Below are positions 30,957-37,641 of a stretch of DNA of 64,000 nt, piece by piece. The first letter of the stretch is position 1; every line of letters begins with the position of its first letter. A model generated the notes under the pieces. It was not told the DNA's origin, did not search any database, and was given only the letters and a program-made list of their open reading frames with translations. The DNA lies in assembly GCA_018263395.1 (NCBI GenBank), contig JAANXF010000014.1, forward strand, positions 1 through 64,000, in the 5' to 3' direction. The position numbers were made by a program, and so were the translations under genes. The DNA is from Methanonatronarchaeales archaeon (lineage in GTDB: Archaea; Halobacteriota; Methanonatronarchaeia; JAANXF01).

Positions 30957-31123
30957 GGGCCAGTAGATCAGCGGTAGATCGCCGCCTTCGCAACGATCGT
31001 AACTCGCTCGATCCGTTGTGGCGTGCAGGACACGCCACCAGGAGAAATCACGGGTAACAAAAAAAAAACGTTACGATACCGCGGAACAGGCGGAGGCCTC
31101 GGGTTCAAATCCCGACTGGTCCA
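30957..31123 (+). tRNA. tRNA-Ala(CGC), with about 95-nt intron at the 37/38 position (approx. 30993-31087)
   Basis: Acceptor GGGCCAG/CTGGTCC including G3:U70, D-stem GATC/GATC, anticodon stem CCGCC/GGCGG with loop TTCGCA-A, T-arm TCGGGTTCAAATCCCGA; mature length 72 nt; intron junction can form a bulge-helix-bulge (TCGC/GCGG helix). Confidence 0.92.
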
Positions 31124-31606: not shown

Positions 31607-32716
31607 TTATCCAGAATTGGGGCCCAGCGTGGTCTGTCCACGCGTCTGCGAGTCCTGGAGCGCATGAGAGCCCTCCACCTTCTCGTGAGTTACTGTATAC
31701 GTGTTTTTATTCCGTTCGACCTTCTCGGCGGTGTAGAACTGCATCTGCTTCTCCTGCTTCGTCATCACCGGGAAGCTGTAATTGTCCGCGGTATATCCCG
31801 GACCTTCTCCGTCGTTTTGCCGGTCGCGGACGAATTCCTTATGCTGGTCCAACCGTTCGGTCACGACCTGACGGGTCATCTTGTCTACTCCGGTGACGCG
31901 GTCTTCGAAGACCTCCGTAAATTCTTCTTCAAGTTCGTAACCTACTGAATTGCGGCCCGCGACCATTGCTGCCAGGGACGTTGTTCCGGTTCCCCAGAAC
32001 GGGTCGAGTACTGTATCGCCATACATGGAGTACATATTGATAAGGCGATACGGGATTTCAAAGGGGAAGGCAGCGGATCTTTGACGGAGCTCGTTATTAT
32101 CTAAGGTTTGGAGAGCGCCCTTTACGTCCTTCCATACGTCGGAAAACCATTCGTTGCGTTCCTCCCAGAAGTAGGCAGAATTATATCGAGGCTCGTACTC
32201 TGGTTCGAACGTCCGTTGCTGTTCTCCTTTACGGAAGATTAAGAGGTATTCATGCTCCAGTGTAGCGTAGGCGTTCGGCGGAATCATTCCACTGCCCATG
32301 AACTTCGCCGCCGAGTTCGTCGGTTTACGCCACAGGATGTCTGGGAGCGGTTCAAATCCGAGGTTTTCGAACTCTTCTATAACGCGGGCGTGGTTCGGGT
32401 ACACCCGAAAGCTCCCGTCCACCCTTCGAGTAGCATCACCCGTGTTTATACAGGCGATTCCGCCGTCGGCTATGGCCCGATTTACTTCCCGCCAGGTCTT
32501 GGCCAGCTCTTCGTGCATTAGGTCAAAAGCGGAGCGACCGTTACCGTTGGTGAGGTGTCTGCCGATACTCGGATTTATTTCCTCAAACATCTCGTCCCAC
32601 ATCTCTATCATTGGATACGGGGGGGAGGTAACGATTAGTTCAACTGAGTCGTCTTCAACCCGGTCGAGCTCCCGCGAATCACCGATTACAACACGATGTT
32701 TAGTCTCCATACTCAT
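31607..32716 (-). CDS. Site-specific DNA methyltransferase (SPPY-type, beta/N4-cytosine-like), no restriction partner
   Basis: VTSPPYPMIEMW (motif IV) and DPFWGTGTTSLAAMVAGRNSVGYEL (motif I). Confidence 0.88.
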   Translation of the reverse strand: MSMETKHRVVIGDSRELDRVEDDSVELIVTSPPYPMIEMWDEMFEEINPSIGRHLTNGNGRSAFDLMHEELAKTWREVNRAIADGGIACINTGDATRRVDGSFRVYPNHARVIEEFENLGFEPLPDILWRKPTNSAAKFMGSGMIPPNAYATLEHEYLLIFRKGEQQRTFEPEYEPRYNSAYFWEERNEWFSDVWKDVKGALQTLDNNELRQRSAAFPFEIPYRLINMYSMYGDTVLDPFWGTGTTSLAAMVAGRNSVGYELEEEFTEVFEDRVTGVDKMTRQVVTERLDQHKEFVRDRQNDGEGPGYTADNYSFPVMTKQEKQMQFYTAEKVERNKNTYTVTHEKVEGSHALQDSQTRGQTTLGPNSG

Positions 32717-36169: not shown

Positions 36170-36315
36170 GATTCTGCCCTATCCCCGAAGACGAGAGGTA
36201 AACCTGAATACTAAAGAAGTTTCGTCAACCACTATAAAGTCCCTTTTTACACACATCGGTCGTAACTCGGATGTCGGCAACGTCTCCCTCTCTCTATATC
36301 CACTGTAACTTATTC

Positions 36316-36983
36316 GGCTTTGTTGCAACCCTTTTTTAGTTTTAATACGGCATAATTTATGTTTTGAATCATGCGTTTTATTGTTGGTTTTCTGAACTGT
36401 TTGTACCGAGTTTTTGGTACTGTATGGGAAGAATATTTTCTTTTTAGGGCTGAGTTTGTGGTTTCGTTGGTTCGGAAAACTTTGGAACAGTTTTCCTACT
36501 AGAGGGTTTTGTAGAAATCTTCGTGTTTCTTTGATTGTACAGGTCGTTGTCTATTTCTTCGTTGAGTTCGATATTTATTTACTGGTTTTATTTCTTTTTC
36601 TCGGCAGAGTTTTTTTTTATGTCTGTGGAGTCGTAGTCTTTATTATATAAAACGGCATCTATCTTTTTTTTTGGTTTCTTTTTATTGGGCTGGGAGTTAT
36701 CTGTGTGTCGTGGGCGAAGGTCTCTTCGAGTTCTTCTTGGAAGCAGATTCCTTGGGAATCTGCGTGTTTTCGGGTTGTTGTTACGTAGATATCTATGGTT
36801 GTTGAGTTTTTGTCGACGGGCAGGGTTGTTTTCGGGTTTTTTTTAATTTTGGGTTTGGTTCTTTCGAAAATTGGGGATTTTTTGTATGCAGAAGACACTT
36901 TCGGTGTCTTCGGATTCCCCATCCTCAGAAACCTTTCTGAGTTTAAGCAGTTAAGTATGTTTTGGAAGGAACGCAACAGAGCC
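36316..36983. mobile_element. 668-bp AT-rich MITE-like element with IS6-like inverted repeats, no transposase
   Basis: Left end GGCTTTGTTGCAACC, right end (reverse complement) GGCTCTGTTGCGTTCC; flanked by ACTTATTC/ACTTATTT; sharp GC drop; only short ORFs inside. Confidence 0.7.
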
Positions 36984-37020
36984 ACTTATTTATGTTAGCT
37001 CTTCCACTTAGAGGGAGGCG

Positions 37021-37641
37021 ATGCCGGAAAAGATTAGTACGGGTATCGACCCCCTGGACGAGCTCTTGGACGGAGGTTTCCGCCGGGGATCCTCGGCGGT
37101 ATTTTACGGTCCCCCCGGGGACGGCAAGTCCTACGTAGTGTGGAGTACGGCGAGCTGTGCCGCCAGGTCCGGGCAGAGCGTTCTATACTTCGCCCTGCAC
37201 GGCCTGGAGAGTGATAAGGTCAAGTCCATGGAGAACATCGCCGGTATGGACTTCGATCTGGTGGACAAGCTGGAGTTCGGGACCAAGAGGAAGAAGCTCT
37301 CGGATTACATCGACGACGAGGATGTCGTAATAATCGATTCACTCACCGACCTCGACGACGGGTACGGAAACGACATTTTTTCCGACCAGTTTGGGGAGGT
37401 CCTCTTCGAGACCAAGGACAAAGGGATAGTTACCGTCATGTCGATGATGTACCACCCGACCCACAAGTTTCCGACCTTTTTGAGAAAGGTGGATTACCTC
37501 GTCGAGTTCTCGGAGATCGTCGAGGGGGACGAGGTGGATAGGAAGCTGTTCGTCCAGAAGACGCCTCGAAAAATGCACGAGCGGAGATACTCCTACAGAA
37601 TAGTGGACGACGAGTTTGTGATAGAGGGCGTCGCCGATTAG
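37021..37641 (+). CDS. KaiC/RadB-like RecA-superfamily ATPase
   Basis: STGIDPLDELLDGGF, GPPGDGKSYV Walker A, VVIIDSLTDL Walker B. Confidence 0.8.
   Translation: MPEKISTGIDPLDELLDGGFRRGSSAVFYGPPGDGKSYVVWSTASCAARSGQSVLYFALHGLESDKVKSMENIAGMDFDLVDKLEFGTKRKKLSDYIDDEDVVIIDSLTDLDDGYGNDIFSDQFGEVLFETKDKGIVTVMSMMYHPTHKFPTFLRKVDYLVEFSEIVEGDEVDRKLFVQKTPRKMHERRYSYRIVDDEFVIEGVAD

Follow-up and report, generated by a model that had tools for sequence, protein, structure and literature searches.

Here we report that a 668-bp AT-rich block in a Methanonatronarchaeales genome is very probably a fossil, internally deleted IS5/ISH1-like insertion that has taken up units of a distinct mobile repeat, ~50 bp long and built of two hairpins. 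The block lies in a 64,000-nt stretch of one contig, referred to below as the window, and the first-pass annotation had described it as an IS6-like MITE whose perfect hairpins suggested RNA cargo or strong modulation of transcription. We found homology of the block to an insertion sequence (IS) of the same genome, two repeat units placed at sites within the transposase sequence, a dispersed repeat family to which these units belong, and copies in frame within protein genes. During or after its decay, the IS remnant would have gathered copies of this separate palindromic repeat. The remnant itself is ordinary; the hairpins, which belong to a small, newly recognised family of repeats with two hairpins each, are the interesting part.

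The decayed insertion sequence and its relatives

As first annotated, the 18-bp inverted ends of the block are imperfect, with 14/18 positions complementary, and they are flanked by an 8-bp duplication with one mismatch (7/8; the chance of at least a 7/8 match between the flanks is ~6e-4 for one AT-rich pair). The reported drop in composition was also confirmed, the GC content of the block being ~0.38 vs 0.63 in its surroundings. Its plus strand is T-rich because the coding strand is A-rich, as is likewise the case in an intact copy of the IS (A 0.34). The coordinates of all features are given in Table 1.

Table 1. Features of the 668-bp block and its flanks, in window positions
Feature	Position	Strand	Details
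Left target-site duplication ACTTATTC	36308-36315	.	7/8 identical to 36984-36991
Left terminal inverted repeat GGCTTTGTTGCAACCCTT	36316-36333	+	3' end of the IS, with the transposase strand as reference
Transposase fragment 4 (..NETTNSALKRKYSS..YKQFRKPTIKRMIQNINYAV)	36346-36615	-, third frame	profile 197-276, domain E 7e-9
Unit C, 53 bp	36472-36524	-	first hairpin decayed, second GGAAAACT..AGTTTTCC; between NQRN and TNETTNS (TNETTNSALKRKY)
Transposase fragment 3 (NKDYDSTDI..EEIDNDLYNQRN)	36519-36680	-, other frame	profile 176-236, domain E 5e-4
Transposase fragment 2 (HDTQITPSPIKRN)	36665-36715	-	profile 165-181, domain E 0.009; resumes fragment 1 after the insert
Unit D, 51 bp, CAC on both sides	36713-36763	-	GCAGATTCC-CAA-GGAATCTGC and an imperfect second hairpin; between TTTRKH and DTQI
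Transposase fragment 1 (ERTKPKIKK..DIYVTTTRKH)	36755-36865	-	profile 133-168, domain E ~2e-6; also found by tblastn
Unit A	36861-36911	-	first hairpin GAAGACACC-GAA-AGTGTCTTC, second decayed; at the N-terminal deletion junction
IS-end hairpin CTCAGAAA-CC-TTTCTGAG	36924-36941	.	own to the IS lineage; no R1 or R2 match
Right terminal inverted repeat GGCTCTGTTGCGTTCCTT	36966-36983	-	5' end of the IS; common to the C13 copy
Right target-site duplication ACTTATTT	36984-36991	.	read from the sequence
KaiC-type ATPase gene	37021-37641	+	Pfam PF06745; neighbour just downstream of the insertion, outside the element

The minus strand of the block encodes a broken IS5-family (ISH1-like) transposase, whose first ~130 residues are missing and which is interrupted by stops and spread over three frames. 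An hmmsearch of the block with a profile built from 27 transposase homologues gave four matching stretches in three minus-strand frames, which follow each other in the correct order over profile positions 133-276, and tblastn with the intact transposase P0001, encoded on another contig (C13), matched the same strand in two segments (E 1e-7). P0001 belongs to the IS5 family (NCBIfam NF033579, transpos_IS5_2, 172 bits at a cut-off of 140; DDE_Tnp_1 also matched), and its relatives are encoded in 117/295 genomes of the phylum. The IS6 assignment was rejected: none of the block's ORFs gave a Pfam match, no IS6 protein was found, and the transposase remnant is of IS5/ISH1 type, as is the intact IS that matches it. 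While it is correct that no IS6 transposase can be read, the block is not simply non-coding, as it holds these frameshifted pieces of an IS5-family transposase.

The intact IS on C13 is 970 bp long, has ends (GGCTATATTGCAACCC / GGCCTTATTGCGACCC) similar to those of the window element and is flanked by a perfect 8-bp target duplication (AAAAAAAC/AAAAAAAC); a duplication of 8 bp is a trait of the ISH1 group. The core of the terminal inverted repeat is GGCTNTGTTGC in the window element vs GGCTATATTGC / GGCCTTATTGC in the intact IS. The 40 bp around the left end of the block share 97% identity with the end of another IS remnant, on contig C18 (L003), and their core is also present in the intact IS. 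On C13 the intact IS5-type IS is nested (L002:1501-2784) within an element that is related to that of the window, is older and has decayed. This host element is 306 bp long without the nested IS; its right end matches 131-138 bp of the block at 82% identity, and the two decayed elements have in common unit A and an identical N-terminal deletion junction. Because of the transposase remnant, the intact IS in the same genome, and the end and deletion junction shared with the C13 copy, the block is best read as a fossil, internally deleted IS5/ISH1-type insertion with its transposase on the minus strand. It resembles members of this group in transposase homology, DDE domain, ~18-bp inverted ends and the 8-bp duplication present in the intact copy, whereas autonomous members have an intact transposase and the window copy is dead, having lost the N-terminus, fallen into three frames and received hairpin units.

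It is possible, though doubtful, that the element is a true MITE, that is, an internally deleted derivative that was transposed together with its hairpins by the transposase of the intact IS. The right end, deletion junction and unit A of the C13 copy favour such a history, but only two copies were found, their lengths (668 vs 306 bp) and interiors differ, units C and D are absent from the C13 copy, and a single deletion before an ordinary duplication could account for both. As regards the IS part, a MITE is compatible with a fossil insertion, and what stands of the original description is an element that has transposed and is now non-autonomous, as seen from its inverted repeats, 8-bp duplication and second deleted copy. 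Apart from one 55-bp match (E 3e-4), which falls in a decayed, related IS of the relative G002, no copies of the 668 bp were found in 40 relatives. Searches of genome contigs gave no relative with the IS transposase, and 33 distant loci but no near relative with GltX (best identity 45%); no empty site was seen because no near relative was found.

Two further features of the window were observed outside the block. A tRNA at 30957-31123 (+), matched by an Rfam model over 167 bp and missed by ARAGORN, probably has an intron, and an N4/N6 DNA methylase gene at 31607-32716 (-), perhaps acquired, lies in a stretch of lower GC content (0.51-0.57).

Hairpin units and the dispersed repeat

Four perfect stems of at least 8 bp (8-9 bp) are present in the block, at 36474-36496, 36743-36763, 36891-36911 and 36924-36941. 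The mean in 300 dinucleotide shuffles of the block was 0.06, with 0/300 reaching four, and in the rest of the window such hairpins occur at background level. The fifth hairpin initially listed (36403-36420, GTACC..GGTAC) has a stem of 5 bp and is unremarkable. Three of the block hairpins belong to a dispersed double-hairpin repeat, which recurs in unrelated settings at eight other loci and is represented here by units C, D and A. Descent of the hairpins as part of the IS was rejected, as the intact IS has none: stems of at least 7 bp are absent from it and number 4 and 2-3 in the two decayed remnants. Most of the hairpins are not the IS's own. Units D and C would be insertions, as judged against homologous proteins, because they lie exactly between transposase codons and neither is in the intact relative; unit C shifts the transposase frame. 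The duplications at the insertion sites, CAC and AC, are so short that they do not prove transposition; both precise window sites, like the copy in L003, come after ACAC.

The repeat is ~50 bp long and consists of a hairpin GAAGA..TCTTC or GCAGA..TCTGC (8-9 bp, short loop), a 5-nt spacer and a hairpin of 9-10 bp, often with GA(A). Its copies were collected with two covariance models, R1, built from six seeds and searched over all 22 contigs, and R2, built from 11 rows; ~42% of the genome was read as stretches and the remainder was searched with the models. Rows were padded with N in the loops before alignment because the variable arms are not alignable by MAFFT alone, and hairpin pairs in L086, which lie in or near tRNA-like sequence, were excluded from the family. 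Unit D, a seed of the models, was matched at E values of 1e-8 and 3e-6, unit C, not a seed of R1, at 0.003 (R1) and 3e-6 (R2), and unit A at 0.17 (R1) and 9e-4 (R2). Besides unit C, R1 recovered unseeded copies at C3, C10 and C16, and it gave no copies in 295 kb of two genomes of the same class. R2 found 12 places at nine loci in this genome at E up to 0.01 and, over 294 other genomes of the phylum, more than one match only in G008. In leave-one-out scoring, all 5000 randomised double hairpins of a row's own composition were outscored by 11/11 rows (z 4.6-6.1), and the units therefore share ancestry, not only shape, with the caveat that palindromy or similarity was what made the first seeds recognisable.

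The family is small. Neighbouring pairs of perfect hairpins number 9 in 495 kb of the genome vs 0-2 in second-order Markov controls. For single hairpins there is no clear excess over the genome as a whole (97 vs 74-86 at 8 bp), and a reading of the block hairpins in those terms was rejected. One of the copies, GCAGATTTCGTATTAAATCTGC-TTATA-AGAAAACCTCATCGAGGTTTTCT, lies in the L003 remnant, which is that of another IS5-type transposase (NF033579 match), and a similarity search with this stretch led to one further site.

Copies are found on either strand and in unrelated settings. Those in the arginyl-tRNA synthetase gene argS and in trpC are in frame, in extended N-termini upstream of the part that aligns to solved homologues. 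In ArgS (C18:50313-50402), three hairpins fall within the first ~37 codons of an ORF with a start that overlaps the stop before it, and the alignment to solved ArgS starts at residue 43, past the hairpin-coded segment. In TrpC (C10), the array codes roughly for residues 31-64; solved IGPS proteins align from TrpC residue 70 at their residue 37, which leaves ~33 extra residues. A weaker copy is located in the N-terminal extension of a nucleotidyltransferase-like ORF on C9. On C7 (L068:1330-1846, minus strand), a putative PIN-type gene, assigned by reading the sequence, follows an antitoxin ORF and is apparently broken by two hairpin arrays, and the copies on C3 and C16 adjoin tRNA-like sequence near contig ends.

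We also noted a third type of hairpin, approximately CACCGCTTCnnnGAAGCGGTG followed by (C)TTGAAC, at L126:1470-1500, L081:9296-9316, L082:14462-14495 and L003:1281-1329. It often stands just before a double hairpin or apart from one, and a complete element may comprise three hairpins. A different cluster, with some six to eight distinct hairpins packed into 200 bp, was seen between small toxin-antitoxin-like genes on C17 (L094:1880-2085).

Arm pairing and the origin of the palindromes

Covariance between copies had been suggested as a check on the hairpins, and the repeat units do covary, although not in the manner of an RNA. In alignment A6, 15/19 pairs bear two-sided changes, and 41 two-sided cells that keep pairing stand against 1 one-sided standard change. 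Over the 11 rows the arm pairs comprise 179 Watson-Crick pairs, 1 G-U pair and 19 mismatches, counts that lean towards pairing in that the seeds were chosen partly for being perfect palindromes; the five non-seed rows, themselves found with the structure model, give 74, 1 and 14, respectively. In an RNA under selection, many G-U pairs are expected among the departures from pairing. Here the departures look like plain mismatches and G-U pairs are almost absent, which favours a DNA palindrome over RNA, and the arm pattern points to a DNA-level palindrome, not RNA cargo.

It is accordingly highly improbable that the hairpins are a structured RNA of the IS lineage, whether cargo or cis-regulator. 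The two-sided changes would suit an RNA, as would the IS-end hairpin, whose pairing is kept between the two IS copies by a two-sided change (its C13 counterpart is CCCAGAAA..TTTCTGGG). Against it stand, besides the scarcity of G-U pairs, the occurrence of copies on either strand and in unrelated settings, also within the coding frames of ArgS and TrpC, and an intact IS without hairpins. The proposal of RNA cargo or transcriptional modulation is also unsupported in view of the nature of the hairpins, three of which are a dispersed repeat, with two inserted in the transposase frame. Known RNA families were rejected as well: at gathering score, the Rfam matches in the window are tRNAs only.

Alternatively, each hairpin could have arisen locally by template switching, in which the polymerase copies a stretch back on itself, so that the hairpins would be mutation scars rather than mobile copies. 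Perfect arms amid decayed surroundings, stem sequences that vary among copies and the tolerance of decayed DNA for scars agree with this origin, which we nevertheless consider improbable. Unlinked units share a skeleton beyond palindromicity, including the spacer and outer bases, the layout of two hairpins with a 5-nt spacer recurs, and the homologous transposase is without both arms. As the sole origin, template switching is mostly refuted by the shared skeleton; it could act later, keeping the arms complementary.

Under the favoured explanation, a separate mobile repeat collected by a decaying IS, the units may be DNA palindromes that spread by inserting at short target sites, and they would be tolerated where the frame stays unbroken. 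Rather than by RNA function, their arms may be kept complementary by a DNA-level process, either hairpin-templated copying or a requirement of mobility; hairpin extrusion might be required for mobility, or one arm might be recopied from the other. No mobilising enzyme was found, and a Y1 transposase was rejected as the mover, its domain (PF01797) not being found in this 78%-complete genome.

Relation to known elements and significance

Rickettsia palindromic elements (RPE) are short palindromes dispersed over a small genome and lying in frame within unrelated protein genes (PMC10969869). The archaeal repeat is alike as a dispersed palindrome in frame within protein genes, but RPE are ~150 bp long with a conserved peptide, whereas the archaeal repeat is ~50 bp long, has two hairpins and is read in different frames. 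It is not a member of the RPE because it has no conserved peptide and a third of their length. Mitochondrial double-hairpin and other repetitive hairpin-forming elements show complementary substitutions and insert into genes and spacers (PMC2800124, PMC4478555). The archaeal repeat resembles them in its tandem hairpins with complementarily varying arms; they reside in organelle genomes and it does not, and a sequence relation is not expected. The GC42 clusters of yeast mitochondria have a tiny target repeat, AG (PMC4478555), to which CAC and AC at the archaeal insertion sites are similar, although by themselves no proof. REP/BIME and IS200/IS605-derived palindromes are likewise short palindromes in tandem pairs, but REP lie outside genes and depend on transposases of the Y1/RAYT class, and no Y1 transposase was found in the 78%-complete archaeal genome. 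A limited literature search, in itself weak evidence, found no archaeal counterpart of the double-hairpin repeat.

In G008, perfect stems of at least 9 bp number 36 vs 6-12 in 400 kb, a clear excess, and form tandem pairs of another sequence; this excess lends independent support to the view that double-hairpin repeats are a kind and not a curiosity. Tandem hairpins are numerous along this genome (~1.07 Mb, one contig; L171, L175, L177, L182-L201), for example GAAAATATTCCnnnGGAATATTTTC-TTAA-GAAGATATCCnnnGGATATCTTC, and TCRCAGTTCnnnGAACTGYGA was seen adjoining GTTGWATTTCCnnnGGAAATWCAAC.

Only tentatively do we propose a broader reading, namely a new archaeal mobile palindrome of ~50 bp with two hairpins, which would move without a known transposase, rewrite its arms to stay complementary and enter essential genes (ArgS, TrpC) in frame, where it would supply new N-terminal peptides, with an independent variety of the same layout in G008. 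Palindromes that code for protein have been considered peculiar to Rickettsia, and double-hairpin elements peculiar to mitochondria. In such a family in a small archaeal genome, copies in dead transposons would stand in a neutral setting, and those in frame in the aminoacyl-tRNA synthetase and tryptophan genes (ArgS, TrpC) in a selected one. The two settings would allow comparison of the ways in which such palindromes are mobilised, arm complementarity is kept up and new protein segments arise.
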